Shown here in pieces: positions 1 to 23,828 of a stretch of DNA of 64,000 nt. This DNA comes from Acidimicrobiia bacterium (GTDB lineage: Bacteria; Acidobacteriota; Terriglobia; Bryobacterales; Bryobacteraceae), in contig VFZE01000015.1 of the NCBI GenBank assembly GCA_016871315.1, forward strand, positions 1-64,000, in the 5' to 3' direction. Each line of letters opens with the position of its first letter. Positions within the stretch are counted from its first letter, which is position 1. The notes under the pieces were generated by a model. That model saw nothing but the letters and a program-made list of their open reading frames with translations. It was not told the DNA's origin and made no database searches. The position numbers and the translations under genes were made by a program.

Positions 1-2461
1 AGAACTCCAGCCGCCCGGTCTTGGTGTACCAGGGCCGCGAGTCCACTACCTGCTCATAGCCGACATTCTTCGGGGTGGTGCGGCTGTTCATCAGCGCCGG
101 CACTCCACGCAGCGCCTTGGCCTCCAGCTCGGTGAACTTGTAGCCCTTGGTGTTGGTGGAGAAATCGACGATGCGCTGCAGGTAGGCAGTGACGTTGTTC
201 TCCTCGACGAACTTCCAGGCATCGGCAAAGCGGCGGTCGCCGGTGAGTTTGGCCATGTGCTTGCCAACCAGCGCCAGCACATCGATATCGCCGATGGTGT
301 TGAAGATGCGCTGGAGCGGCGTGCGCGGGAAAACCTGGAGGAACGGATTGGTGACCGAGGCGGTCACGTCGGGATGCTTCAACTCGGCCCAGGAGTCGAC
401 GCCGAAGACGACATCGGCCCATTCGCAGGAAGCCGTCCACCACCACTCCTGCACGGCGATCATTTCAATCCGCGGCAGCACGTTGATGACGGTGTTGTAG
501 TGCCACTTCACGTTGCCGAGAATCGAGTTGGCGTTGGCGAACCACATCGCCTTGGTAGGAGCGGGCATGTGCGTCGCGCCGGTGAGCAGCTTCTTGCCGA
601 CGCGCAGCGGATGATCTTCGTGGTTGTAGTAGTGCGCCGATTCCGGCCGCCAGTACTGGCGAGGCCGAGCCGGCTTGGCGGGATCGAGTTCCAGGTCGAA
701 CGGATTCTCATTGATGTACTGCGGCACGCCGTTAAACAGCGCGACACGGTAGTTGCCGGCATAGGAGCCGACGTTGCCGCCGATCTTTCCGACGTTGCCC
801 GTAAGCGCCGCCAACAGGAAGATGTCGCGGTCTTTGTTGTCGTTGTTGAAGAACTGGTTGGGCCCCATGCCGACGGCAAACAAGGTCGTGCCCGGCACGC
901 GGGCGATCTCACGCGCCAGTTGCTCGACCGCCGCCGCAGGAGCCCACGTCATCTCCTCGGTCGTCTTCGGATCAAAATGCGCGGCGTATTCCTTCACCAG
1001 GTCGAACACAGGCCGGCAGCGGACCTTCTTGCCATCGGCAAGCGTCACCTCCACCGAACCCTCCAGCAACGCATCGCCGATGCCGGAGTTTTTGCCCACC
1101 ATGTCGCGGGTGAGCATCTTGGCCGACTTGGTGGCGCGGTCCCACCAGACGTAGTCGCCCCACTCCAGCCGCATCTTCTCCGGAACGATCATGTCGGTGT
1201 GCGCGGCAGGCGGAGGTTCGCGTTCGCCGTCCTTCAGCACGCGCGTGGCGCTGAGCGCCGCGGGCTTCAGCCCGAGCGTCTCCTCGGCGCGCAGCATCTT
1301 CAGCGTGTCCATGCGAACCAGCAGCGGCAGGTCGGTCCATTGCTTGACGTAGGCTTCGTCGTACAGCTTCTCCTTGAGAATGACGTTGGAAAGGCCGAGC
1401 GCCAGCGCCGGCGTGGTTCCGGGCCGCACGACAATCGCCTGATCGGCCTTCGAAGAGGTCGCAGAATATTCGCAGGCGATCACCACCACCTTGGTCCCCT
1501 TCAGCCGCGCCTCGGTCAGCCAGTGCGAATCCGGCATCTTCGTCGTGATCCAATTCATGCCCCAGACCACCAGCACGCGGGCATGCTCGGCCGAGTTCAG
1601 ATCCCATTCCACCGTCTGCTGGCCGGTCACCATCGGATGGCCCGGTGGCAGATCGGTGTGCCAGGAGTAGTTGTCGAAGCCGCGCGCGCCGAGCGCCTTG
1701 TCCGGCCCCACGCCGCGGATCTTGGCATCCAGCAGCGCCATGCAGTTGGCCATCCGGTAGAGCCCGAACACGCGCGTCAGCCCGAGCAGCGGCATGCCGC
1801 CGCGGAACTTCAGCGTCTGCGTCCCGGCGCCCTGCATCGCATCGATCGTCTCCTGCTCGTAGTGCTGTTCCTTCAGCCGCCGCTTTCCTTCCTCGCCGCT
1901 GTAGGTTTCGGCGATGTTCTTGAGCGAGGTGGCCACAATCCTGGCCGCCTCGTCATGCGACACGCGCACCCACTGGTCGCGCGCGCGGTTGAAGTATTTC
2001 TCCGGCGGCCGTCCGTCGTTGCCGCGCGGGAAGCCTTCCTCCACCCACTGCTTGAATCCCGCGCGCACCATGCACTGGTTGATTCTGCGGTCGCCGTAGA
2101 AGCGGCGTGTCAGCGCCAGACCCTTCTGGCAGACGCGCGGGTCCCAGCGCGAGGAGGTCCGGTTGCCGGCCAAGTCGGCCGCCTCGCCGTACTTCATCGT
2201 TGGGCCGATGCGCGTGATCACGCCGTTGCGGACGTAGGCATTGAGCAGGCAGTTGTGCGTATCGTTGGGAGCGCACAGGAACGTGAACAGCGAATCATGT
2301 TTGAACAAGTCGCGATAGACGCGTTCCCAGCCGCGGTCCGGGTAGGCCGCCAGCGGATTGGAAACGGCCTCCAATCCCCAGGCATCCTTCACGGATGTGG
2401 CCAGCCCGCCGAAGCCGGCGGCGGTCATCATGGCGGCGAAATCTCTGCGGGAAAGTTTCAT
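1..2461 (-). CDS. Tat-exported NarG/NxrA-like molybdopterin oxidoreductase, catalytic subunit (3' end outside window)
   Basis: This is the catalytic subunit of a type II DMSO-reductase-family enzyme; about 820 N-terminal residues are visible. It opens with a twin-arginine signal ([19 protein letters not shown]), so the enzyme should act outside the cytoplasmic membrane. The FS0 cluster motif near residue 50 reads CAPNDTHNC, with a fourth Cys about 39 residues later (DPRVCQKG). An Asp therefore occupies the place of the second Cys of the usual (H/C)x3Cx3C motif. As I recall, this C-x3-D-x3-C form is found in Nitrospira/anammox NxrA. The segment [12 protein letters not shown] carries the Asp expected to ligate molybdenum in type II enzymes. 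Its start overlaps the stop of the cytochrome c gene (ATGA). A NarH-like Fe-S subunit would be expected beyond position 1. Nitrate reduction or nitrite oxidation is likely but unproven; related enzymes act on chlorate, selenate or hydrocarbons. Confidence 0.8.
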
Positions 2462-4113
2462 GGCTTGCTCCCCTCCCAGGAGCGTATGAAGGACACCACC
2501 GAGGCGATCTCGTTATCGGAAAGCGCCTGGCGCGCCGGGCTTGGAGTGCGGAAGCCCTCCATGGTGGTACCGCGGCGGCCCCGCCCGATGGTCTCCATCA
2601 GGAAGGCGTTGGTGGCGATGGAAAGAAAAACCTTGTTGTTGAGCGACGGACCGGCGGCGCCTTCGCCCTTGGGGCCGTGGCAGCCGGCGCAGGCCGAAGC
2701 ATAAATCCGCGAACCGGCCGCGGAAGCGCCCGGCAGCGCTTGCGTGGGCGCAGGCTGAGGCCGCGCCTGCACGCCGCTCATCTGGCGCAAGTAGCCGACA
2801 ACGGCCAGGATTTCCGGCTGGCGCAATCCGCCGTCCCTGTCCCAACCCGGCATGCGGCGTCCGGGACGGCCCTTGCGGATGGTTTCGATCAGGAATTCAT
2901 CGGAGACCAACTCAAGCAGGTCGGGGTTGGAGATCGACGGAAAGGCCGGCATGCCGGGCGAGCGGAAGCCTTTGCCGTCCGCTCCGTGGCAACCGGAACA
3001 GAACGCGCCGTAGATGGTAGCGCCGTCGGTTGCGAACTCGCGCTCGCCGAATTGCAGCGCGCGCACGCGATCCTTCGGCGCGAAGCTGACGGGAACGTCG
3101 CGGCGGCGCAGGCTGAACAGGTAGAAGTTGAGAAGCTCCATCTCCTCCGGCGGCACGTGCAGGGCCGGCATCAGCGATCCGGTCACCGTCCCTGAGGGAG
3201 ATCGGAAATGTTCGGTGAACCAGTTTTCGACAGACTCCTTCCCCGGCACGTGAGTGAAGTCCATCAGCGCCGGATCCTTCAGGCCGGCGAGCGACAGCTC
3301 CGGCCCGTCATCGCCGCCGATGGCGCCGGTCTTGTGGCAACCCAGGCAGCCGGAGGAAAGAAAGACAGACTTGGCTTCCACCAGCTTCGGCGCTCCGACG
3401 CGGGTGTCGAGGAAAGTAGCGAGCAGCTCCAGGTCGGCCTGCGTGATGGGCGCGAAGGAGGTTTTCCACGGCCCGCGCGCGGCCTGCTGGGACTGGCGCA
3501 GGTGCTTCCCGTACCATTCGCGGTCATACCCTGAGATGCCTGTGCGCGACAGATCACCGCCCTCCATGCCGCCGCCATCGGGCCGCAGTAGTCCACCGCG
3601 CCCGTCCATGCTGTGGCAGGCGGCGCAGTCCAGCCGCTCATAGGCTCCGCGTGCGCGGCGGAACCCGTCGCGCCCGGGCGCGTTCAGCGCGATGTGGCAG
3701 GTCCCGCAGCCGGCGTAGGAGAGGCGGACCGGAATCATCGGCTCCGGCCAGAAGTGCACGTCGCCGTGCGCGTCGTCCTTTTCGGTGGCATGACCTTGTC
3801 CGCCGTGACAGACGGTGCAGCCGTATTCCGCCGGGTCATGCACCACGGGCTTGTGCGCGGTGAGCACGCCGGGACCGGCGGCATTCTGCTCGCCGGGGCC
3901 CATGCTCACGTGACAGGAGGTGCAGCGGTCGCTCAGGTTGAGTCCGCGATTGATGACTTGACGCAACTGCACCGCGACAGGCCCTTCCTCGGTCTTCGCC
4001 GTCGCCTGAATCTTGCGCCAATCCTTCAGAAAGTTTTCCTGCACGGCGGCAACGGCCAGCAGGACGAAGACCCCCAGGCTGGATGCGAGCAACAAGTATT
4101 TGTTCTTTTTCAT
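2458..4113 (-). CDS. membrane-anchored heptaheme cytochrome c
   Basis: A 551-residue protein with an N-terminal signal-anchor ([20 protein letters not shown]) and seven CxxCH heme motifs: CTSCH, CTVCH, CGTCH, CAACH, CLGCH, CSGCH and CAGCH. The first four lie in the N-terminal 200 residues and resemble a multiheme module. The last three look like successive monoheme class I domains (for example [11 protein letters not shown] and [11 protein letters not shown]). It should sit on the outer face of the membrane and carry electrons between the Rieske/cytochrome b module and the molybdoenzyme encoded next. The gene starts 4 bases after cytochrome b and its TGA overlaps the ATG of the molybdoenzyme. 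The electron-transfer partner is inferred from the operon; the heme count is read directly. Confidence 0.88.
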
Positions 4114-4117
4114 GGCA

Positions 4118-5668
4118 TCAATGCCTCGGCCAGTCCGATGGCGACCAGTAAAAGACCCAGTTCGGGCCGCGGAACCAGGTGCCGATGATTGTCAGCACCA
4201 GGAATCCGCACAGGAAGCAGGTGAACAGTCCCAGCGCGCCCGCGCGCGCCGATTGATAGCGCTTCACCAGCCACACCGAATAGGCGCCGTAGAGCAGCGT
4301 GATCAGCGTGGCCGGATTGATCAGGGTGACGATCAGCTGCGGCACATTCGGGAACCATTCCCGCAGCCAGCCGAAACGAATCACAAGCGCCTCCACCGCC
4401 AGGCATGCGCCCAATCCGTAGGCGACGGCCTGGCGCACCAGCTTCCAGCCGCCCGGTCCGCCGAACCAGACGCCGGTGCCGGTGCGCTCGCGGTCCAGAT
4501 AGGGAATCAAGCCAAGCCCGATGATCACGATCGTCGGAATGCCGATGCCGCCCATGAAGGCGGAAAACGAAACCAGCTCCTGGAGGCCCAGGAAGTACCA
4601 CGGCGCCTTGGCCGGATTTTCGGGAATGTTGGGATTCGCGATGTCCTTCAGCGGCGCGTCGGAAACCAGCGCCAGCGCCAGGCAGACCAGCATCGTCAGC
4701 ATCAGCACGGCCAGTTCCGCATAGAACAGATGCGGCATCGAAGGCACCGTATTTTCCGGACCGCGGTTGACCACTTCCGTCTTGCCGCGCACGATCGCCG
4801 CCAGCTGGTAGGTTTTCGCCGGCTGCTCAGTGAATACCGGATAGGTGTCGCGCTCGCGCCCGCTCAGCCGCGCATCGGCATCCTCGGGCTTCGCCAGGCC
4901 GCCGTCCTTGCGGATGCGCCAGAAGTGCACGCCCATCAGCGCCGCCAGCACCAGCGGCAAAATCATCACGTGCAGCAGGTAGAAGCGGATGAGCGATTCC
5001 GAGCCCACTTCATCGGAGCCGAGCAGCAGCAGCCGCTGCAAACCGCCGGGATCGAAGTATTCGGTGATGCCGACCGCATCGGTCACCTCGCGCGGCGATT
5101 GCGCGATGTTGGCGCCGATCGTGATGGCCCAATAAGCCAGCTGATCCCACGGCAGCAGGTATCCGGTGAAGGACAGCCCGAGCGTGGTGATCAGCAATCC
5201 GAGTCCGATCAGCCAGTTGAATTCGCGCGGACGCCGATAAGCGGCGGTGTAGAAGGCGCGCGCCATGTGCAGAATCACGGTGACCACCATGACGTTGGCC
5301 GCCCAGCGGTGAATGTTGCGCATGAATCGGCCGGTGGGAACGACGAAGTGGATGTCCTTGATCGAGTCGTAGGCAACGTCGGGATAGGGCTTGTAATAAA
5401 ACATCAGCAGAATGCCGGTGACCAGCGTGATCAGAAAGGCCGCCGTCGAAGCGATGCCCAGGCCCATCGTCGTCGACCAGCGGAGGCTCCACAGGTGCGT
5501 GCGCACCGAATGCAGGTGGAGGAAAAGGTTGCCGAACACGAAGGAGGAGCGCGTGCGGTCCGTCACCGGCTTGCCGGAGCGGAACGCCGTCTCGTAAATG
5601 CGCCGCGGCGCCGCGCGCAGGTTCTGCCAGAACTCCTGCATCGCCGTGTTGGTGGTGGCCGGGTTCAT
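4118..5668 (-). CDS. cytochrome b of a bc-type quinol oxidoreductase complex
   Basis: A 516-residue integral membrane protein of the cytochrome b/b6 family, with the N-terminal four-helix core and a C-terminal petD-like part in one chain. The helix carrying [20 protein letters not shown] and the later [20 protein letters not shown] supply pairs of heme-ligating histidines. [11 protein letters not shown] is the typical segment after the second helix. The quinol-site PEWY motif appears as [14 protein letters not shown], i.e. PWYF, as in b6f-like proteins. Together with the Rieske protein upstream (ATGA overlap) it forms the quinol-oxidising or quinone-reducing core of the complex. Comparable Rieske/cytochrome b genes occur next to periplasmic nitrate reductases of haloarchaea and in anammox bacteria. 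Confidence 0.92.
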
Positions 5669-6150
5669 GCGTTCACCTTCGTTCCCGGCGGCACCATTTC
5701 GCCCTCATCCACCGTGAAGGCTCCGCCGGCGGCGGTCACCTTCAGCCACGGCAGCGGCTGCGGGGCCGGGCCTTTGGTCACCGTGCCGTCGGCGGAAAAC
5801 TTCGAGCCGTGGCAGGGGCATTCAAAACCGCCTTCAGCCTGCTTCACCAGGCAGCCCAGGTGCGTGCAGACGGTGGATACCGCGTAGACGCCCTCGGCGT
5901 CGCGGAACAGCGCCACCTTGCGCCCGGCGGGCATGAACACCTCGCCGGGGCCGAGCGTCTCCGGCAGAGTGACGCGGAACTTCTTGGATGGCGAACTAAG
6001 CACGGCGGCTTTCGGCAGCCGGGCGATACCGAACATTCCAAACAGCATCGCCAGCGCGGTTGACCAGAGTGAGGCCAGCCCGAGCATGTCCCGCCGCGGC
6101 ACGGGCTCCGGATCAAGCCGCGATCGGGTGGGTCCAGGGTGGAGAGTCAT
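5665..6150 (-). CDS. Rieske [2Fe-2S] subunit of the bc-type complex
   Basis: A 161-residue protein with a hydrophobic N-terminal anchor ([20 protein letters not shown]) followed by a Rieske fold. Both cluster-binding boxes are present: CTHLGC (Cys and His ligands) and CPCHGS. The start chosen is the ATG at 6150, which overlaps the TGA of the upstream oxidoreductase gene. A longer reading frame extends upstream but runs inside that gene and is ignored. The stop overlaps the cytochrome b start by ATGA. The protein should pass electrons from quinol bound at cytochrome b to the multiheme cytochrome. An Arg pair ([11 protein letters not shown]) precedes the anchor, so Tat insertion is plausible, as for other Rieske proteins. 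Confidence 0.93.
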
Positions 6151-8033
6151 ACGGTCCTCCAGAATGTGTGGAAGGTGACGCGTTCCATGCTGATGGCGTC
6201 CACTGGGCAGCGCATCGCGCATAGCGCACACCGGATGCAGCGGTCCTCGTCCTTGAGGATCGCGGTGTTTTCCTCGGGCGCGGCCTCCGGGCCAAGCAGG
6301 CGGCCGATGGCCTCGGCGATCGGGGCGTCCGGCAGCAGCCGGTCCAGGCTCACCAGCTTCAGGCACTGCGTCGGGCAGACGTCGGCGCAGCCGCCGCAGA
6401 GCACGCAACGCAGGCCGTCAAAGACCGGGGTGACGCCGCAGTCCAGGCACCGGCTGGCTTCGCGCATCGCCTCCTCGGCGCTATAGCCGATTTCCACCGG
6501 GTGGTCCATTCCCGCCAGCCGCTCGCCGGGCTCGGCGGCGGGAACCGGCACGCGCCGCAGCGATTCATAGCCGCGTTCCCGCCGGTAGTTGTCCAGCACC
6601 AGGTGCGCGTGCGTGGAGGCGGCATGCAGTTCCCGCCCGGTGATGTACTGGTACACGGAGCGGGCAGCGGCCTTGCCGCTGGCCACGGCGTCGATCAGCA
6701 GGCGCGTGCCGTGGGCAAGGTCGCCGGCGACAAACACGCCGGATTCGGTGGTGGAAAGAGTAGCCGGGTCCACCTTGGGCCAGCCGGGGCGGAAGAACTC
6801 GATGCCGGCGCCGTCGAGGAAGCTCACGTTGGGCGACTGGCCGACCGCCAGGAGCACCGTATCGCAGGGCACGCTGACCCTGTCGGTGTCGTCGAAGACG
6901 GGGGCAAAGCGGCGTTGGTCATCGTAGACCCGCCGGCAGCGCTGGAACAGGACACCGCCCGGCATCCCGTCAGGGCCGCGCTGGATCTCCACCGGACCCC
7001 ACCCGTTTAGCCGCTCAATGCCCTCTTCATCGCCTTCGATGATTTCCACCGTATCGGCCGGCATCTCCTCCAGCGATTCGAGCGATACGAGGCGCACCGC
7101 GGAGGTCGAGCGCAGGCGCGCGGCGGTGCGCGCCGTGTCGAGCGCGATCTGGCGCACTACCGTGCGCGCGACATCGTAAGCAACGTTGCCGCCGCCGATG
7201 ACCACCACATCGCGCCCGATGTCGACCGGCTTGCCAAGCGATACGGCGCGCAACAGATCGACGCCGCCGAACACACGGGGTCCGTTTTCGCCGGGCAGCC
7301 CGAGACCGCGCGACGCCTTGGCACCGACGGCGATAATCACGGCGGCGAAGTCGCGGCGAAGATCGGCAAAGCTGACGTCCTGGCCCACCGTAACCCCGCA
7401 GCGGATCTCAACCCCCAGTGCCTGGATTACCGCCACCTCGCGCTCAATCACCTCGCGCGGCAGCCGGTAGGCTGGGACGCCGACCGTAAGCATGCCGGCG
7501 GCGACCGGCTCCAGTTCGAAGACAACCGGACGGAATCCCATCAGCGCCAGGTCATGCGCGGCGGAAAGTCCGGCCGGGCCGGCGCCGATGATCGCCACCG
7601 GCTGGCCTCCAGCCTTTTCAAAGCGGCCTTGCAGACTGCTCTGGATCAGCGCCGCCATCTCTTCGGCATCGGCGGCGACCTGGGGCACATAGGATTGCAG
7701 GGAGTCCAGCTTGACCGGATCGGCGAGGTCACAGACGAAACGCTTGAGCGCGCGAATCGCGATCGGGCGGTCGACGGCGACAAAGCGGCCGTCATCATCC
7801 ACGCGCGGCACTTTACCGCGGCGGCAAGCCACTTCACACGGGGCGCCGCAGATGCGGCCGCAGATGGAGGCGAACGGATTCGGCCCGCGCGCGATGAGAT
7901 AGGCTTCTTCGAAGCGGCCTTCGGCGATGGCCCGGACATAGCCGCGGGCGTCGGTATGCACAGGACAGGCGCGCTGGCACGAGATCAGCCCCTGGTGGTA
8001 GCCGTTCGCCGGGATTTCGACCTTCAATTGCAT
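6147..8033 (-). CDS. GltD-like NAD(P)H/FAD oxidoreductase with extra 4Fe-4S domains
   Basis: A 628-residue soluble flavoprotein. The N-terminus carries the Cys-rich Fe-S domain typical of glutamate synthase small subunits (CQRACPVHT, then [17 protein letters not shown]). An FAD fold follows ([15 protein letters not shown]) and a nested NAD(P) fold ([14 protein letters not shown]). The C-terminus has two ferredoxin-type clusters, [15 protein letters not shown] and [15 protein letters not shown]. No signal peptide is present, so it should sit on the cytoplasmic side. Being the second gene of the operon and coupled to the Rieske gene, it probably links the quinone pool or cytochrome b to NAD(P)H; the direction is unknown. 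NAD(P)-oxidoreductase subunits are reported for anammox Rieske/cytochrome b complexes, which is the closest precedent I know. It is not a genuine gltD, because no gltB is adjacent. Confidence 0.85.
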
Positions 8034-8036
8034 CAG

Positions 8037-8504
8037 TTAATGCCTCAGGTGGCTCATCGGGAGGCTGCCCTGCAAAACACAAGTGACGCTGGTTTCCAGT
8101 GGCAGCCGAGGCGCCGGCCGCGCCACCAGTTGTGCCAGGTTCCAGCGCGACAGAACAAAGATGATGGCCTGCCGGAGCTCCGCGGCGGCTTGGTGATAGG
8201 CGCAAGTGTCGTCCGGGTCGCAGACCACGCTGCAATAGTCGCCGACAATGGTTCCCTGGCAGGCCTCGACGATTTCCAGTAGCGAGATCTGTTCCGGCGA
8301 GCGGCTGATCTCGACCCCGCCTTTGGAGCCTTTGTGAGAGCGCAGGATTCCGGCCTTGACCAGGAGCCGGGAGATTTTTGCCATATAAGTAGGTGATTCA
8401 TCAATGGCTTCGGCGAGTTTGCGAGGGGAGAAGAGGCGGACGGGATCGAGTTTGGCCAGGAAGACGAGGCCACGGATGGCGGAGATGGAGGTTTTTTGGA
8501 TCAT
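8037..8504 (-). CDS. Rrf2-family Fe-S transcriptional regulator, first gene of the respiratory operon
   Basis: A 155-residue winged-helix regulator. The N-terminus (MIQKTSISAIRGLVFLAKLD) and helix region (SPTYMAKISRLLVKAGIL, HKGSKGGVEISR) match IscR/NsrR/RsrR. Three cysteines in CSVVCDPDDTC (C-x3-C-x5-C) could bind an Fe-S cluster, suggesting a sensor of nitric oxide, oxygen or redox state. The ATG at 8504 is preferred over an in-frame ATG at 8543. The family alignment begins there, GAGAG lies just upstream, and the 8543 codon falls inside a palindrome at the predicted transcription start. The stop is 3 bases before the oxidoreductase start, so it is co-transcribed with the respiratory genes and probably controls them and itself. 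Confidence 0.88.
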   Translation of the reverse strand: MIQKTSISAIRGLVFLAKLDPVRLFSPRKLAEAIDESPTYMAKISRLLVKAGILRSHKGSKGGVEISRSPEQISLLEIVEACQGTIVGDYCSVVCDPDDTCAYHQAAAELRQAIIFVLSRWNLAQLVARPAPRLPLETSVTCVLQGSLPMSHLRH

Positions 8505-8532
8505 AAACTCTCGAACCGCTCCAAATTCCTTC

Positions 8533-8557
8533 AACGCGGACAATACATATCCGCGTT
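8533..8557. promoter_or_regulatory. 25-bp perfect inverted repeat at the predicted transcription start, likely Rrf2 operator
   Basis: AACGCGGA (8533-8540), 9-base spacer, then TCCGCGTT (8550-8557), a perfect 8-bp dyad. It begins 3 bases downstream of the -10 box and covers the expected transcription start. Rrf2 proteins bind dyads of about this total length as dimers, so autoregulation by the encoded Rrf2 protein is the simplest reading. The link is inferred. Confidence 0.55.
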
Positions 8558-8560
8558 ATC

Positions 8561-8589
8561 ATTCTAAACAAGAGTTTAGGACCTGTCAA
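8561..8589 (-). promoter_or_regulatory. sigma-70-like promoter of the Rrf2/respiratory operon
   Basis: On the minus strand a perfect -35 box TTGACA (8589-8584) is followed after exactly 17 bases by a -10 box TAGAAT (8566-8561). The predicted start of transcription is near 8554, about 50 bases before the Rrf2 start codon at 8504. The spacing and match are the best promoter-like signal in the window. Confidence 0.72.
8564..8579. promoter_or_regulatory. second perfect palindrome between the -35 and -10 boxes
   Basis: CTAAAC (8564-8569), AAGA, then GTTTAG (8574-8579). This perfect 6-bp dyad overlaps the -10 box and lies in the promoter spacer. A protein bound here would block RNA polymerase. Its sequence differs from the neighbouring 25-bp dyad, so it may serve a different regulator. 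Confidence 0.45.
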
Positions 8590-8682
8590 TCTCTTTTATT
8601 GAAAATATGCCTCTTCGGCTCTGGCCAGATTCCACAGCCCGAGCTATACTAGCTCAAGTTTCCTTAACAGGAGTCTATTTTG

Positions 8683-11600
8683 ATGAACAACCCCTTACTG
8701 CGCTTCGGCGCACTGATGCTTGCCCTGTCCTTTGCCGCATTGGGCCAGGAAACCCGTTCGATGCTGTTCGGCCGCGTGCTGGATCCGCAAGGTTCCGCCG
8801 TCGTCGGCGCCACGGTGGTGATCCGCAATGCGGAAACCGGCGTCACGCAGACCATGCGCACCAACGACACCGGCTACTACGAAGGCAACCTGTTAATGCC
8901 CGGCCAATATGAAATCTCGGCCGAGATGGCCGGCTTCAAGAAACTGGTCCGCAAGGGCATTTCGCTGCCTGTTTCCTCGCGAATTGAAGTAGCCTTGCAC
9001 CTGGAAATCGGCGGCGTGACGGAGACCGTTTCGGTGACCGCGGAAGCGCCGCTGCTGGAAACCAACGCGGTCAGCACAGGCCGCGTCATCGACAACAAGT
9101 CGCTCATGGAACTGCCGGTGATGGGCAACAGCGCCCTGCTTTTGGTGAAGCTGGCTCCCGGCGTGCAGACCGGCGGCGTGAACAACTACCTGGCGTTGCA
9201 TTCCAACGTGGGTGGCTCCGACTACAACGTGAGCGGCAACATCGGCGGCAACGCCTGGACGCTGGACGGCTCGCCCAACCAGGGCCCCAGCCGCCGCACC
9301 GCCTATCTGCCCTACACCGACGCCATCGATGAGTTCAAGGTGGAGACCAACAACTTCAACGCCGAAATCGGCCAGAGCACCGGCGCCGCGATCACGATGA
9401 TCTCGAAATCGGGCACCAACAGTATGCACGGAACCGGCACATGGCAGCACTGGCAGCAGCGCTGGCAGGGTACGCCATTCTTCGTCAAGCAGCAATACTA
9501 CCGCCGCATCGCAGCTGCCGAAGCGGCAGGCAACAGCGCTCTCGCCCACCGGTTGCGCGACACACCGAAGCAGCCCACCGGCCGCTCGAATAACTGGGGC
9601 GCTTCTGCCGGCGGGCCCGTGGTGATACCCAAGCTGTTCAACGGCCGTAACAAGATGTTCTGGTTCTTCACCTACAACGGGTTCAAGGACGTGAAGGTGG
9701 AAGACGCGGCCAACTTCAACCGCACCGTGCCTACGTTGAAAAACCGCGACGGCGACTTCAGCGATCTTCTGCTGGTTCGGAACAATCCGGCGCGGTACAT
9801 TATTCACGACCCCACCTCCATCGTGCGCGATCCGGCACGGCCGAACAACTTCATCCGCACGCCATTCCCGGGCAACATCGTCCCGCGCAGCCGGTTCGCG
9901 AACCCCGCCTACGACGCCTACAAGAACATCTACCCGGTGCCAAACGTCGCGATGCCGGAGAGCGAGGACCCCATCAACAACTACCTGGCGAACCAGACTC
10001 CGTACAATTGGGACTACTACGCCTATTCCAACCGCATCGACTATCAGATCAGCGACAAGTGGCGCGCCTTCGGCCGCTGGTCGGTGAACAACTTCGGTCC
10101 GGAAGACCGCGGTGACTGGGTGTATGAAACCGCGCGCGGCCTGAACCTGAACGGCCTGGTGCGGAACAACAAGGGCGGCAATCTTGACATTGTCTACACG
10201 CAGAACCCGACCACGCTGTGGAACTTCAACATCGCCATCAACCAGTTCCGCGAAGGCAACATCCAGCCGAAAGCGCTCGAGTTCAAACCGTCCAGCGTCG
10301 GGCTGCCGGCCTACATGGACGCGAAGGCCGGGGCGCAGGCGCTGCTGCCCCAGATGACCATCACCGATTACTCCACCGTCAGCCCGGGAGGCTTCAACGT
10401 CTGGACGCGTTACCGGATGGCGACCGTGAAGCTGCAAGGCACTTTTATCCGGGGCAAGCACACCATCTCGAGCGCGATTGACCACCGCAACCAGTTCCGA
10501 ACAGGCGGCGGCGGCGGCAACACTAGCGGCAACTTCACCTTCAACCAGAACTACCTTCGCCGCAACGACGACGGCCTGACGCCGGCCAACAACCGCGGCC
10601 TGGGCTGGGCGGCTTTTATCCTGGGGATTCCCTCCAGCGCCAGCGTGGCCACCAACGACAGCTTCGCCACCTACACGCCCTATTACGCCAGCTTCGTGCA
10701 GGACACCTGGCGCGTCACGCCGAAACTGACGCTGAATCTCGGTCTGCGCATGGAGTATGAACGCGGCGCCACCGAACGGTTCAACCGCATGGTGGGCAAT
10801 TTTAACCCCAACATCGACGTGCCGATCGCCGCCGGCGCCCAAGCGGCCTACGCGGCCAGCCCAATTCCGCAGCTGCCCGCCTCGCAATTCCAGATCCGCG
10901 GCGGCAACACCTACGTCGGCGTCGGCGGCGCTCCTCGTGAGCTCTACCAGGACGAAATGATGTGGCTGCCCCGGCTCGGCATCGCCTACCAGCTGGACTC
11001 GAAGACCGTGCTGCGCACCGGCTACGGCATTTTCTACGACACGCTCAATGTGCTGAATTACGGCCCGAACCAGTTTGGCTACTCGCGCGCGACCAACGCG
11101 ATCATCTCGAACGACTTCGGCCAGACCTGGGGCGCGGCATCGGCGCCGTACCCGGCCAACGCCAACCCGAATAACAACCGCAGTATTTTGAACGATCCGT
11201 TCCCGGTCCGCGCCGACGGCACGCGCTTTGACGTGCCCACGCGCGACGCGCTGGGAGCGATGGCTTATGCCGGCCGCGGACTCGGCTTTACGGACTTCAA
11301 CACAGTGCACCCGCGCCAGCACCGCTGGCAGGCCGGCATTCAGCGGCAGTTCGGCTCCACCATGGTGCTGACCACCTCCTACGTCGGCACGCGGGCTTCC
11401 CGCATCTCGCAGTTTTCCTCCGGCGGCAACGTTCCGGGCCTACCGTTGCAGCCGCTGGCGGCGCAGTACTGGGTCTCCGGAAACGCGCGCGACGAATCGG
11501 CACAGCGGCTGCTGAACGAGAACGTCACCAATCCGTTCTTCATCGGCAACTTCCGCCAAGCCGACTTCTCGCCGCTGGTGTGGGCCGATTTGAACGCCAA

Positions 11601-12381
11601 CTCCTTCTTCACGGCGCGGATCATTCCTCGGCACCGTCTGCTGCGAGCTTTCCCGCACATCAACGGCCTGACCAACAACAGCGAAGCCAGTGCAACCACG
11701 AGAACGCACGAGTTCCAGGCTTCGTTTGAGAAGCGCTTCAAGCAAGGCTGGAACCTGAACCTCTCCTACACGGCGATGCGGCTGCGCGACGCCGACATCT
11801 TCCTGAACGAGTTCGACAGGCAGCGCTTCGAGCAGACGTCCAACGACGGGCGCCCGCACCGGTTCACCGGCACCGGCATCTACACCGTCCCGGTGGGCAA
11901 AGGGCGCAGGTACCTGGGCAGCACCAACCGGCTGTTGGACGGCGTGGTGGGCGGCTGGCAGTTTAGCGCGACCTATGAGTGGCAGCCCGGCCCGCTGCTG
12001 AACTGGGGCAACCTGTTCTACAGCGGCGATGTCGAGAACATCAAGAATGTTGACCGCACGTGGGAAACCTGGTTCAACACCAATGGGTTCGAGCGCGTTG
12101 CGGCGCTCGGCCCGGCCGGCTTCCACACCCGTCAATTCCCCACCCGCATCGGCGGCCTGCGTGCCGATTCCACCAGCCAGTGGAACGCCAACGCGGCCAA
12201 GAACTTTAAGCTGACAGAGGGCACGACGTTGCAACTGCGCATGGACGTGCTCAACGTGCAGAACCGCTCGCAAATGGCGGGTCCGAACGTGGATCCGTTC
12301 AACACCAACTTCGGCCGCATCGTTTCGCAGACATCGGCCGTCAACCGCTGGTTTCAAGTCCAGGCTCGGATCCAGTTCTAG
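8683..12381 (+). CDS. Oar-like TonB-dependent receptor with carboxypeptidase-regulatory N-terminus
   Basis: A 1232-residue outer-membrane protein. It has a signal peptide (LRFGALMLALSFAALGQ) and a carboxypeptidase-regulatory-like beta-sandwich (residues about 25-105: GRVLDPQGSAVVGATVVIRN, DTGYYEGNLLMPGQYEIS). A plug domain follows (about 110-240, including WTLDGSPNQGP), then a long beta-barrel ending in aromatic-rich VQARIQF with a terminal Phe, the outer-membrane beta-signal. Such proteins are much larger than classical siderophore receptors and are expanded in Acidobacteriota, where substrates are mostly unknown. AGGAG (8669-8673) lies 9 bases before the ATG at 8683; an in-frame TTG at 8680 is the alternative. 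TATACT at 8645-8650 may be its -10 box. The Gfo/Idh and enolase-superfamily genes downstream suggest a sugar-derived substrate. Confidence 0.88.
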   Translation: MNNPLLRFGALMLALSFAALGQETRSMLFGRVLDPQGSAVVGATVVIRNAETGVTQTMRTNDTGYYEGNLLMPGQYEISAEMAGFKKLVRKGISLPVSSRIEVALHLEIGGVTETVSVTAEAPLLETNAVSTGRVIDNKSLMELPVMGNSALLLVKLAPGVQTGGVNNYLALHSNVGGSDYNVSGNIGGNAWTLDGSPNQGPSRRTAYLPYTDAIDEFKVETNNFNAEIGQSTGAAITMISKSGTNSMHGTGTWQHWQQRWQGTPFFVKQQYYRRIAAAEAAGNSALAHRLRDTPKQPTGRSNNWGASAGGPVVIPKLFNGRNKMFWFFTYNGFKDVKVEDAANFNRTVPTLKNRDGDFSDLLLVRNNPARYIIHDPTSIVRDPARPNNFIRTPFPGNIVPRSRFANPAYDAYKNIYPVPNVAMPESEDPINNYLANQTPYNWDYYAYSNRIDYQISDKWRAFGRWSVNNFGPEDRGDWVYETARGLNLNGLVRNNKGGNLDIVYTQNPTTLWNFNIAINQFREGNIQPKALEFKPSSVGLPAYMDAKAGAQALLPQMTITDYSTVSPGGFNVWTRYRMATVKLQGTFIRGKHTISSAIDHRNQFRTGGGGGNTSGNFTFNQNYLRRNDDGLTPANNRGLGWAAFILGIPSSASVATNDSFATYTPYYASFVQDTWRVTPKLTLNLGLRMEYERGATERFNRMVGNFNPNIDVPIAAGAQAAYAASPIPQLPASQFQIRGGNTYVGVGGAPRELYQDEMMWLPRLGIAYQLDSKTVLRTGYGIFYDTLNVLNYGPNQFGYSRATNAIISNDFGQTWGAASAPYPANANPNNNRSILNDPFPVRADGTRFDVPTRDALGAMAYAGRGLGFTDFNTVHPRQHRWQAGIQRQFGSTMVLTTSYVGTRASRISQFSSGGNVPGLPLQPLAAQYWVSGNARDESAQRLLNENVTNPFFIGNFRQADFSPLVWADLNANSFFTARIIPRHRLLRAFPHINGLTNNSEASATTRTHEFQASFEKRFKQGWNLNLSYTAMRLRDADIFLNEFDRQRFEQTSNDGRPHRFTGTGIYTVPVGKGRRYLGSTNRLLDGVVGGWQFSATYEWQPGPLLNWGNLFYSGDVENIKNVDRTWETWFNTNGFERVAALGPAGFHTRQFPTRIGGLRADSTSQWNANAAKNFKLTEGTTLQLRMDVLNVQNRSQMAGPNVDPFNTNFGRIVSQTSAVNRWFQVQARIQF

Positions 12382-22054: not shown

Positions 22055-22809
22055 GCCGCGCGCTCGCTCTCACCGCCGCCGCCGTTCTCGCCTTCCTCCA
22101 TCTTCCTCTCGCCGTGCTCACCGTCTTCAGCTTCAACGCCTCGCGCTTCACCGTCTGGGAGGGCTTCTCTTTCAAGTGGTACGCCGCGCTCGCTCAGGAC
22201 ACCCGGCTCATCGAAGGAGCATGGAACAGCCTCCTCATCGCCGCCGCCGCCACCATCTTCGCCACCGCGGCCGGAACCCTCTGCGCCTACGGCCTCTGGA
22301 AGCGCCGCGCCCCGCTGCTCACCGGCACTCTCTACCTCTCCCTTGTCACTCCCGAAATCGTCACAGGTGTCTCCCTGCTCGCCTTCTATCAGTTCCTGTT
22401 CCGCTATCTCGACATCCGACTCGGCATGCACACCGTCATCCTCGCCCACGTAACTTTCTCGGTCGCCTTCGTGGTCGTCGTCGTGCTGGCCCGCCTCCGC
22501 ACCATGGACGCCACTCTTGAGGAAGCCGCCATGGATCTCGGCGCAACCGAATGGGGCGCATTCTTCCGCGTCACTCTCCCCGCTCTGCTCCCTGCCGTCG
22601 CCGCCTCCGCCCTGCTCGTCTTCACTCTCTCCTTTGACGACTACGTCATCACCAGCCTCGTCGCCGGCGTCGATTCGGAAACTCTCCCCATGGTCATCTA
22701 CGCCATGGCCCGCCGCGGCGTCAACCCCGCTGTCAACGCCATCTCTGCATTGATCGTCGTCGGCCTCGGCTTCTTCATCCTCGCCGCCGAACGCCTGAGG
22801 GAACCATGA
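22051..22809 (+). CDS. potC: polyamine ABC transporter permease
   Basis: A 252-residue permease with six predicted membrane segments and an EAA loop (EEAAMDLGATEWGAFFRVTL). The conserved SFDDYVITSLVAG stretch near the C-terminus is typical of PotC. The start is a GTG at 22051 that overlaps the potB stop (GTGA). The potD ATG overlaps its own stop in the same way, so potB, potC and potD should be made in balanced amounts. Confidence 0.9.
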   Translation: MSRALALTAAAVLAFLHLPLAVLTVFSFNASRFTVWEGFSFKWYAALAQDTRLIEGAWNSLLIAAAATIFATAAGTLCAYGLWKRRAPLLTGTLYLSLVTPEIVTGVSLLAFYQFLFRYLDIRLGMHTVILAHVTFSVAFVVVVVLARLRTMDATLEEAAMDLGATEWGAFFRVTLPALLPAVAASALLVFTLSFDDYVITSLVAGVDSETLPMVIYAMARRGVNPAVNAISALIVVGLGFFILAAERLREP

Positions 22810-23828
22810 AGCGCCGCCACCTGCTCGCCGCCTTCGCCTCCCTCGCCGCGTGCCGCCGCTCCTTAAAGCCCCGCCTCAATGTCTTCAACTGGTCCGACTA
22901 TGCCGCCCGCGACACCGTCCCTGCCTTCGAACGCCGCCACGGCGTCGAGCTCCGCTACGCCGTCTATGAAAGCAACGAGGAGATGCTCGCCAAAGTCTTC
23001 AGCGGCAATTCCGGCTGGGACATCGTCTTTCCCGCATCCAGCCTGATCGGTCCGATGCGCGAAAACGGCCTCCTCTCCCCCATCGACAGAAGCCAGCTCC
23101 CCAACCTCGCCAACCTCGACCCGCGCTTCCGGCACCCGCCCTGGGACCCACAACTGGAATGGTGCGTCCCCTACATGTGGGGCGCCTCCGGCATCCTCTA
23201 TACACGCAAACTCAACCCGCCCCCGCGCCGCTGGGCCGATCTTTGGGACCCCCGCCTCGGCGGCCGCATCACCATGCTCGACGATCCTCCCGACGCCATC
23301 GGCGCAGCCCTCAAAAAACTCGGCTTCCCTCTCAACTCCACCAACCCCGCCGAGCTCGACGCCGCCCGCGCCGAACTCCTCAAACAGAAGCCCCTTGTCC
23401 GCGCCTACCTGAACGCCGAAGCCCGCGACCAGGTGGTCAGCGGCGACCTGCTCGCCGCCCAGATGTGGGCAACCACCGCACGCCAGGCCATGGACGCCGC
23501 GCCCCATCTCGCCTTCGCCTACCCCGAGGAAGGCTTCTCCCTCTATGCCGACTGCGCCGTCGTCCTCAAGGAAAGCCGCCGCCACGAACTTGCTCACCGC
23601 TTCATGAATTACCTGCTCGAGCCGGAAACCGCCGCTGCCGTCGTTACCGAATGCCTCACCGCCACCGCCAACGCCGCTGCCCAACGCCTCCTTCCCCCCT
23701 CGCTCCGCGATGACCCCGTCCTCTATCCATCCCCCGAAGTGATGAACCGCGGCGAATGGCTCCAAGCACTCCCCCCCGCCGCCCAGCGCCTCCGCGACCG
23801 CATCTGGACCATCGTCAAATCCAGCTGA
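22806..23828 (+). CDS. potD: polyamine-binding protein of the ABC transporter, probable lipoprotein
   Basis: A 340-residue extracytoplasmic solute-binding protein. The N-terminus has an Arg pair and a lipobox (MKRRHLLAAFASLAAC), so it is likely a lipid-anchored, perhaps Tat-exported, receptor. LNVFNWSDYAARDTVPAFER is the PotD signature at the mature N-terminus. WDIVFPASSLIGPM and VPYMWGASGILYTRKL are binding-site strands. PotD-like proteins bind spermidine or putrescine through acidic and aromatic residues. It is the last gene of the operon; the next gene starts 13 bases after it. Confidence 0.88.
   Translation: MKRRHLLAAFASLAACRRSLKPRLNVFNWSDYAARDTVPAFERRHGVELRYAVYESNEEMLAKVFSGNSGWDIVFPASSLIGPMRENGLLSPIDRSQLPNLANLDPRFRHPPWDPQLEWCVPYMWGASGILYTRKLNPPPRRWADLWDPRLGGRITMLDDPPDAIGAALKKLGFPLNSTNPAELDAARAELLKQKPLVRAYLNAEARDQVVSGDLLAAQMWATTARQAMDAAPHLAFAYPEEGFSLYADCAVVLKESRRHELAHRFMNYLLEPETAAAVVTECLTATANAAAQRLLPPSLRDDPVLYPSPEVMNRGEWLQALPPAAQRLRDRIWTIVKSS

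Follow-up and report, generated by a model that had tools for sequence, protein, structure and literature searches.

The window analysed here, the first 64,000 nucleotides of contig VFZE01000015.1 (C15) of a Bryobacterales genome from the phylum Acidobacteriota (assembly GCA_016871315.1), begins with the larger part of a nine-gene operon, rrf2-gltD-rieske-cytb-cytc7-A-B-gamma-narJ. The operon combines two known kinds in a new way, an NAD-linked Rieske/cytochrome b complex of the anammox type and a nitrate reductase of the Methanoperedens type. We read the nine genes as one respiratory unit, in which a bifurcating Rieske/cytochrome b complex couples the reduction of nitrate to the reduction of NAD+, and give this reading a probability of about one half. 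What we infer is that the proteins form a single complex, which quinone and substrate it uses, in which direction it works, that it bifurcates and how it is regulated.

The source genome comprises 6.25 Mb on 166 contigs and is 98.3% complete. All six operon genes of the window lie tightly packed on the minus strand. Their coordinates agree with the original prediction, which had described six packed genes with overlaps or gaps of 3 to 4 bases: the junctions from rrf2 to A are a 3-base gap, two 4-base overlaps, a 4-base gap and another 4-base overlap. The genes are as follows, positions without a contig name being those of the window.

8037..8504, minus strand: Rrf2-family regulator, operon gene 1 (ATG start; Pfam PF02082, 80.8 bits; the open reading frame extends to a TTG at 8543)
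6147..8033, minus strand: GltD/NfnL-like FAD-NAD(P) oxidoreductase (Pfam PF07992, PF14691 and PF00037)
5665..6150, minus strand: Rieske [2Fe-2S] protein, 161 amino acids (Pfam PF00355)
4118..5668, minus strand: cytochrome b, 516 amino acids in one frame (Pfam PF00033/PF13631)
2458..4113, minus strand: heptaheme cytochrome c (7 CxxCH, one N-terminal membrane helix)
2..2461, minus strand: N-terminal part (residues 1-820 of about 1147) of the narG/nxrA-type catalytic subunit A, truncated by the contig end
C25:1140-2267, after A: Fe-S subunit B, nxrB/narH-like, 375 amino acids
C25:2280-3143: haem b gamma subunit, 287 amino acids (Pfam EB_dh)
C25:3140-3748: narJ-like chaperone, 202 amino acids (Pfam Nitrate_red_del)

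The window begins at base 1 of C15, and the left part of the operon was severed by the assembly. A search of the source genome for a beta subunit gave a match at C25:1206-1997. Contig C25 opens (1-1137) with the last 378 residues of subunit A, and the ends of C15 and C25 overlap by about 155 bases with one mismatch. From this overlap and the gene order in relatives, the two contigs appear to be adjacent in the genome. As the start of C25 supplies the rest of A, followed by B, gamma and narJ, the full order is that of the nine genes given above. The Fe-S partner and the gamma subunit, which according to the original prediction were to be sought left of position 1, were both found on C25.

The gene order was compared among loci with a subunit A of at least 70% identity and at least 6.5 kb of upstream sequence, with 10 repeats removed and the window included. 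The order gltD-rieske-cytb-cytc-A, the first four genes of which are called the platform genes below, recurred in 47 of the 48 distinct loci and is therefore not due to chance. The order A-B-gamma-J was present at all 55 loci of at least 70% identity with 3 kb downstream. The operon is widespread and not rare. Subunit A was found in 39 of 257 genomes of the order (at least 72% identity; G237, which has the Kuenenia type, was not counted) and in 32 of 396 sampled genomes of the phylum (at least 59% identity). A cytochrome b of at least 70% identity occurred in 37 of the 39 genomes with A, and all 37 genomes with such a cytochrome b among the 257 also had A. The two A genomes without a cytochrome b match were G103, in which the contig ends inside cytc, and G099. 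Relatives of the cytochrome b at 60-66% were also found in genomes without this A. The named carriers of at least 70% identity all bear titles of metagenome-assembled genomes; others, such as the one-contig genome G145, may be isolates.

According to the proposed mechanism, A-B-gamma would be a periplasmic nitrate reductase, exported by twin-arginine translocation (Tat), anchored as a lipoprotein, built like the nitrite oxidoreductase (NXR) NXR-ABC and matured by the NarJ-like chaperone. It would be docked to a Rieske/cytochrome b complex of the anammox type, whose NAD(P) oxidoreductase subunit, carrying FAD and Fe-S centres, would lie in the cytoplasm. Menaquinol would be oxidised at the Rieske/cytochrome b complex. 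The first electron would pass from the Rieske protein through the heptaheme cytochrome c, the haem b of gamma and the Fe-S chain of B to FS0 and the Mo, where nitrate would be reduced to nitrite, and the second would pass through the b haems and the Fe-S/FAD subunit to NAD+. The downhill nitrate branch would pay for the uphill NAD+ branch and provide NADH for biosynthesis during nitrate respiration, and the nitrite might be reduced further to ammonium by NrfHA. Papers given here by PMC number are cited from excerpts. With potentials of about -70 mV for menaquinone, +420 mV for nitrate and -320 mV for NAD (PMC12954380, PMC8387239), an electron passed to nitrate yields about 490 mV and an electron passed to NAD+ costs about 250 mV, so that bifurcation is energetically allowed.

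Compared with solved structures, the Rieske protein matched 9rk4 (Kuste4569 of Kuenenia) best with 71.3 bits, followed by the b6f Rieske protein 8hn2 with 58.8 bits and 9rk3 (Kustd1480 of Kuenenia) with 58.0 bits. The likeness of the bc and GltD parts to anammox Rieske/cytochrome b complexes, which had been noticed from the sequence earlier, was thus borne out. The protein contains the motifs CTHLGC and CPCHGSKF and has the Ser/Phe pair of Kustd1480 (GSKF), with Ser in 52 of 55 homologues. Measured potentials are +303 mV for Kuste4569 and +335 mV for Kustd1480, and electron bifurcation was put forward as the way in which their complexes generate NAD(P)H; for Kustd1480-1485, the paper states that a driving reaction has yet to be proposed (PMC12954380).

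Cytochrome b showed 9 hydropathy peaks, a number that fits a b6 part of four helices plus the five that subunit IV has in the Kuenenia models, with the b6-like and subunit-IV-like parts fused (4+5 helices). Among 7 platform loci of 64-69% identity, 6 encode the two parts in separate frames and L151 in one piece. The haem b ligands His 120, 134, 233 and 248, together with H51, R253 and K254, did not vary across 95 rows (84 distinct). The position of the haem cN cysteine, which we take to be correctly identified by the b6f motif, is occupied by glycine in the window (G69) and in 63 of 63 rows of the window type; cysteine was found there in 9 of 13 rows from the class of a metagenome-assembled genome (MAG) titled Brocadiaceae. 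The heptaheme cytochrome has 7 CxxCH motifs, as do 57 of 59 homologues, and one hydropathy peak. Its AlphaFold model had a mean pLDDT of 72, with most of residues 30-124 below 50. Foldseek matches were all weak, none being under E 0.001; the first was a Kuenenia HAO-like complex cytochrome, followed by cytochrome cc of complex III-IV supercomplexes. To the right of the window (G000:C15:93700-101700, L188) lies a second Rieske/cytochrome b cluster that also encodes an ExtQ-like membrane protein, a frame with 8 CxxCH motifs and a haem o synthase.

The same complex might operate without bifurcation. The GltD-like subunit would then oxidise NAD(P)H and deliver electrons to the b haems or the quinone pool, and the whole would be a nitrate reductase that draws on NADH and menaquinol and runs an ordinary Q cycle. 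The parts and their conservation fit this as well, the NAD module could in principle work either way, and an ordinary bc1 complex likewise lacks the haem cN cysteine that is missing here. However, the Rieske protein retains the high-potential serine, and such an arrangement would be wasteful compared with a proton-pumping NADH dehydrogenase, an argument made for Kuenenia (PMC12954380). Although this is the alternative that survives best, it is considered unlikely.

Related platforms were found next to other enzymes. At loci L180-L185 (G200, G116, G130, G126, G107 and G108), which are six of those with a cytochrome b relative at 60-66% and without this A, gltD-rieske-cytb-cytochrome c stands beside a 916-amino-acid molybdoenzyme; the enzyme was recognised by similarity in five of the six, the contig of L184 ending first. 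At L180 the cytochrome c has six haems, and the molybdoenzyme passed the DMSO_red_II cut-off with 1118.5 bits, PcrA being its best solved match (911 bits). The N-terminus of this PcrA-like enzyme carries RRDF, followed by a cysteine (PGC). All three fetched loci of another kind, from further genomes of the order (L186, L187 and L190 in G202, G219 and G064; 47-52% identity), showed the order rieske-cytb-heptaheme c-ccoN-ccoO-gltD. In the two that were scanned, ccoN stayed below its NCBIfam cut-off (324-326 bits against 583), and Pfam COX1 exceeded its own. Locus L191 (G016:C20) consists of gltD, rieske, a split cytochrome b, an octaheme cytochrome c (8 CxxCH) and a further cytochrome c. In the genome of L169, titled Brocadiaceae, no cytochrome b match was obtained; the same query matched 14 of 23 genomes of its class. 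As judged from these genes, the constant part is an apparently NAD-linked Rieske/cytochrome b platform, and the variable part, where identified, is the terminal oxidoreductase. It is possible, if tentative, that this exchangeable platform generally bifurcates the electrons of menaquinol, passing one to the plugged-in terminal enzyme and one uphill to NAD+. The terminal enzyme would be the nitrate reductase here and a PcrA-like molybdoenzyme or a cbb3-type oxidase in the sister versions.

The flavoprotein has an N-terminal Fer4_20 domain and two C-terminal 4Fe-4S sites. It reached 385 bits with NCBIfam PRK12771, under the cut-off of 516, and its best PDB matches were 9bov and NfnA. Where five aligned solved relatives have an RR pair, the window and 46 of 49 homologues of at least 70% identity have LE, and the segment YRR...MPA of the solved relatives is replaced by another stretch of 10 residues. 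We assume that the RR pair separates a preference for NADP(H) from one for NAD(H). Because RR is replaced by LE, NAD(H) is more likely the nucleotide than NADP(H), and the flavoprotein is proposed to be the NAD site on the cytoplasmic face. The original prediction had linked nitrate or nitrite chemistry outside the membrane with NADPH inside; of this, the coupling to a pyridine nucleotide remains likely, but NAD(H) probably takes the place of NADPH. A glutamate synthase small subunit was rejected as the identity of this protein because the RR pair is replaced and the operon has no large-subunit gene.

The flavoprotein could also be a separate soluble enzyme that is only co-regulated with the other genes, for instance to supply a reduced donor or to assimilate ammonium from nitrate ammonification. 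Among its relatives, several carry the annotation glutamate synthase small subunit, and a structure of the whole complex does not exist. On the other hand, its gene overlaps the Rieske gene by 4 bases, the protein has Fe-S sites at both ends, and the related flavoprotein stays with Rieske and cytochrome b in the three cbb3-type oxidase loci. Moreover, a glutamate synthase large subunit is not among the operon genes, the rest of the genome not having been searched. A separate enzyme is therefore rather improbable.

The best PDB match of A was Kuenenia NXR-A (7b04_B) with 611 bits, followed at a distance by PcrA with 148 bits and NarG with about 100 bits. Subunit A carries the Tat-like motif SRRDF, the FS0 ligands C63, D67, C71 and C111 (C63-x3-D67-x3-C71), the substrate Asn N66 and the Mo ligand D270 in TDLPPGHP, and the three marks named before are present, the Tat signal as a Tat-like motif, the Mo-ligand Asp in TDLPPGHP and the NXR-like FS0 motif C-x3-D-x3-C. 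With matches starting past residue 60 excluded, C63, N66, D67, C71, C111 and D270 were all kept in 64 of 64 rows of at least 70% identity and in 29 of 29 rows at 50-70%. For NXR, the FS0 ligands, Asn70 and the Mo Asp are named in PMC8387239, and every ligand of that paper that was tested is present in A. An FS0 with 3Cys/1Asp or 3Cys/1His is found in NXR and Nar alike, depending on the lineage (PMC8387239). Since the clade of the window and Methanoperedens, which lies outside the Kuenenia NXR clade, has the FS0 Asp, this residue is a mark of a wider group and no signature of nitrite oxidation. The cytoplasmic NarGHI type was rejected for A because of SRRDF and of an EB_dh gamma subunit where NarI would be expected; the NCBIfam narG model gave 127.6 bits on the 820-residue piece against a cut-off of 1084. 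Membership among PcrA, SerA and EbdA was rejected by the PDB ranking and by the DMSO_red_II alpha score of the same piece (258.6 bits against a cut-off of 984.75).

Subunits B and gamma also matched Kuenenia best, with 378 bits for B (7b04_A) and 54.8 bits for gamma (7b04_C). The Met and Lys of the haem-ligand motifs of gamma were both found in 55 of 60 matches; in pairwise alignment the Lys was off by one residue with 7b04_C and aligned on Lys with EbdC. The N-terminus has a TAGC lipobox in the window, and 48 of 60 matches showed a loose lipobox pattern, a pattern count without a control. Owing to this N-terminal lipobox, gamma is probably a lipoprotein. In the same genome, a second molybdoenzyme match with one in-frame TGA was noted at C25:24147-25814 and an Fe-S subunit match at 22630-22908; at a guess, this second enzyme is possibly a selenocysteine formate dehydrogenase.

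The tree of the catalytic subunit was calculated from 818 columns and 46 rows (quick tree, LG+G4, support by the SH-like approximate likelihood ratio test, SH-aLRT, without bootstrap). Kuenenia NXR is the sole named NXR in it, those of Nitrospira, Nitrospina and Nitrotoga being outside the sample. Kuenenia NXR clustered with 9 proteins from other genomes of the window's phylum (SH-aLRT 100), and the window A fell in another clade of 34 rows that includes two Methanoperedens-type archaea (SH-aLRT 100). The window A was 38% identical to Kuenenia NXR, 57% to Methanoperedens nitroreducens and 56-57% to the Methanoperedens-type loci L174, L175 and L177. The Kuenenia-type A proteins of the phylum were 54-67% identical to Kuenenia NXR (11 compared). 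The original prediction, which had spoken of a NarG/NxrA-like enzyme, is corrected in that the protein lies outside the Kuenenia NXR clade and inside the one that includes the Methanoperedens nitrate reductase.

The presence of NrfA was called in the 257 genomes of the order with PF02335 at E <=1e-30. NrfA was found in 27 of 39 genomes with A and in 29 of 218 without A (Fisher 2e-12, a p value that ignores shared ancestry). The source genome contains an intact NrfA frame of 479 amino acids, and the adjoining gene with four CxxCH motifs looks, by eye, like NrfH. In MAGs of Acidobacteriota, narGHI and nrfAH were reported by KEGG annotation (PMC8100337); the words 'Rieske' and 'nxr' are absent from the main text of that paper. 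The tree, the association with NrfA and the oxidase that neighbours one related platform favour nitrate reduction, with ammonification as the next step, over nitrite oxidation. The suggestion that the unit might run in reverse accordingly lost ground, and nitrite oxidation was dropped as the first choice after the tree and the NrfA test. The genome's own RuBisCO was not used as a sign of autotrophy: the 428-amino-acid protein with GIDFVKDDE gave 233 bits, the family also matches Bacillus subtilis, and the form is left open.

Were A a nitrite oxidoreductase working in the oxidative direction, the bc/NAD module would serve reverse electron transport. All FS0, Asn and Mo ligands of Kuenenia NXR are kept, the trimer is built like NXR-ABC, and PMC10732223 leans towards NxrA for the wide clade. 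Nitrotoga NXR is about 40% identical to Kuenenia NXR (PMC8387239). However, A stands outside the Kuenenia NXR clade, none of the 9 sufficiently flanked loci in that clade carries Rieske, cytochrome b or NAD genes upstream, NrfA is associated with A, and one related platform stands beside an oxidase, which leaves this alternative a slim chance. That another oxyanion, such as chlorate or selenate, and not nitrate is the physiological substrate is very improbable, for although the ligands alone do not give specificity and the type II DMSO reductase family is diverse in its substrates, the substrate Asn, the nearest named relatives, which are nitrate or nitrite enzymes, and the link to NrfA speak against it. 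A proteins 40-47% identical to that of the window were present in 17 of 396 sampled phylum genomes (L080-L090, L040 and others); the 11 compared with Kuenenia NXR, at 54-67% identity to it, are candidates for nitrite oxidation in Acidobacteriota. At L085 (G267:C16), within the Kuenenia NXR clade, Cys occupies the FS0 Asp position, and this FS0 may be all-Cys.

Several points weigh against the proposed bifurcating nitrate-reducing unit. The same parts would also serve an ordinary Q cycle that takes NADH as an additional donor. The complex differs from its anammox counterparts in that the haem cN cysteine is missing and b6 and subunit IV are fused. The spacing of H51 to R253/K254 differs from the numbers in PMC12954380 in a comparison made without a Kuenenia cytochrome b, and the interface haem b of Kuenenia is not mapped onto the window protein. 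Regarding distribution, among loci at 50-70% identity the platform was seen in 7 of 22 and none was seen in 15 of 22, Methanoperedens among them, and L147 (Planctomycetia SJ466), at 71% identity, has no platform genes in 10 kb upstream. At L191 no terminal enzyme was identified at the locus. The genome searches scored the best 3 to 6 candidates per genome. Regarding direction, 12 of the 39 genomes with A showed no NrfA at the threshold used, and the window and Methanoperedens occupy separate sub-branches of the 34-row clade, the base of which is left open by the tree. Nitrate reduction by the Methanoperedens cluster was itself proposed from genome and transcriptome (PMC4683180), and Kuenenia NXR catalyses both directions (PMC8387239). 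In PMC10732223, Methanoperedens NarG and Kuenenia NxrA form one broad clade, for which that paper leans towards NxrA and states that sequence alone cannot assign the direction.

Two putative regulatory features were detected upstream of the operon.

8561..8589, minus strand: sigma-70-like promoter TTGACA-17-TAGAAT (11 of 12 consensus matches)
8537..8553, minus strand: candidate operator CGGATA-N5-TATCCG (one mismatch in the window)

A promoter scan of 8000-8900 gave 2 sites, compared with a shuffle mean of 0.3. Of 22 upstream regions, 13 contain the candidate operator with no more than 2 mismatches, compared with a mean of 0.24 and a maximum of 2 in 200 mononucleotide shuffles; this count is partly circular because the consensus was derived from some of the same regions. 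The cysteines of the Rrf2 protein include 95, 104, 108 and 114 (numbering from the TTG at 8543), and rrf2 is immediately upstream in 17 of 44 loci with 7.5 kb flank. Regulation of the operon by its own Rrf2 protein, acting at the promoter palindrome, is likely. Another palindrome in the promoter spacer, CTAAAC-N4-GTTTAG, was rejected, as it occurred in the window only (1 of 22 upstream regions). Upstream of the operon, positions 8680-12381 contain a divergent open reading frame of 1233 amino acids, which we take to resemble a TonB-dependent outer membrane protein with a carboxypeptidase-regulatory domain.

Plausible electron sinks can be named from genomes of several phyla: such a complex shares its operon with a nitrate reductase here, and its relatives neighbour a PcrA-like enzyme or a cbb3-type oxidase. 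If the proposed mechanism is true, the bifurcating machinery, which in the literature found has so far been proposed only for anammox, would be a general bacterial module with nitrate as a natural acceptor, and a second route to NADH would exist beside complex I during respiration. The idea of bifurcation also becomes testable outside anammox bacteria, in which mutational studies are impossible (PMC8387239). We expect that automated tools may label A as narG or as nxrA, which have opposite ecological meaning.

The operon was undescribed in the titles or abstract openings found in the openly licensed PMC literature. Genes of Rieske/cytochrome b complexes together with narGHI or nxrABC were reported in the same planctomycete MAGs (PMC10732223). 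Among systems with a Rieske/cytochrome b complex encoded together with an outer-face reductase, the haloarchaeal nar clusters (PMC4683180) and the Caldithrix nap cluster (PMC5317091) are like the window, the latter with a Nap-type enzyme; an NAD(P) oxidoreductase subunit is not mentioned for either in the excerpts. The nearest named relatives with a proposed role are the nitrate reductase cluster of Methanoperedens, which likewise comprises a Tat signal, NarH, NarJ and a b-type cytochrome; unlike in the window, its Rieske/cytochrome b genes are in another cluster (PMC4683180). At L174, L175 and L177, tblastn with the window Rieske protein, cytochrome b, heptaheme cytochrome and GltD gave no match within about 9-10 kb on either side, L177 possibly being the cluster of the strain in PMC4683180.

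The Kuenenia NXR-ABC (7b04, PMC8387239) resembles the window in its trimer, the 3Cys/1Asp FS0, the substrate Asn, the Mo Asp and the Met/Lys motifs of gamma. It differs by its low identity to the window A (38%), its separate clade and the lack of platform genes in the 9 loci of that clade, and the lipobox at the start of gamma belongs to the window. The Kuenenia complexes Kuste4569-4574 and Kustd1480-1485 (PMC12954380) share with the window a close Rieske protein, the five-helix subunit-IV part, an Fe-S NAD(P) oxidoreductase and a multihaem cytochrome c. The window complex differs from them by the fusion of cytochrome b with subunit IV, the lack of the haem cN cysteine and a heptaheme instead of a hexa- or octaheme cytochrome. 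The partner in the operon is a nitrate reductase in the window, whereas an HAO-like protein or none is proposed for the anammox complexes.

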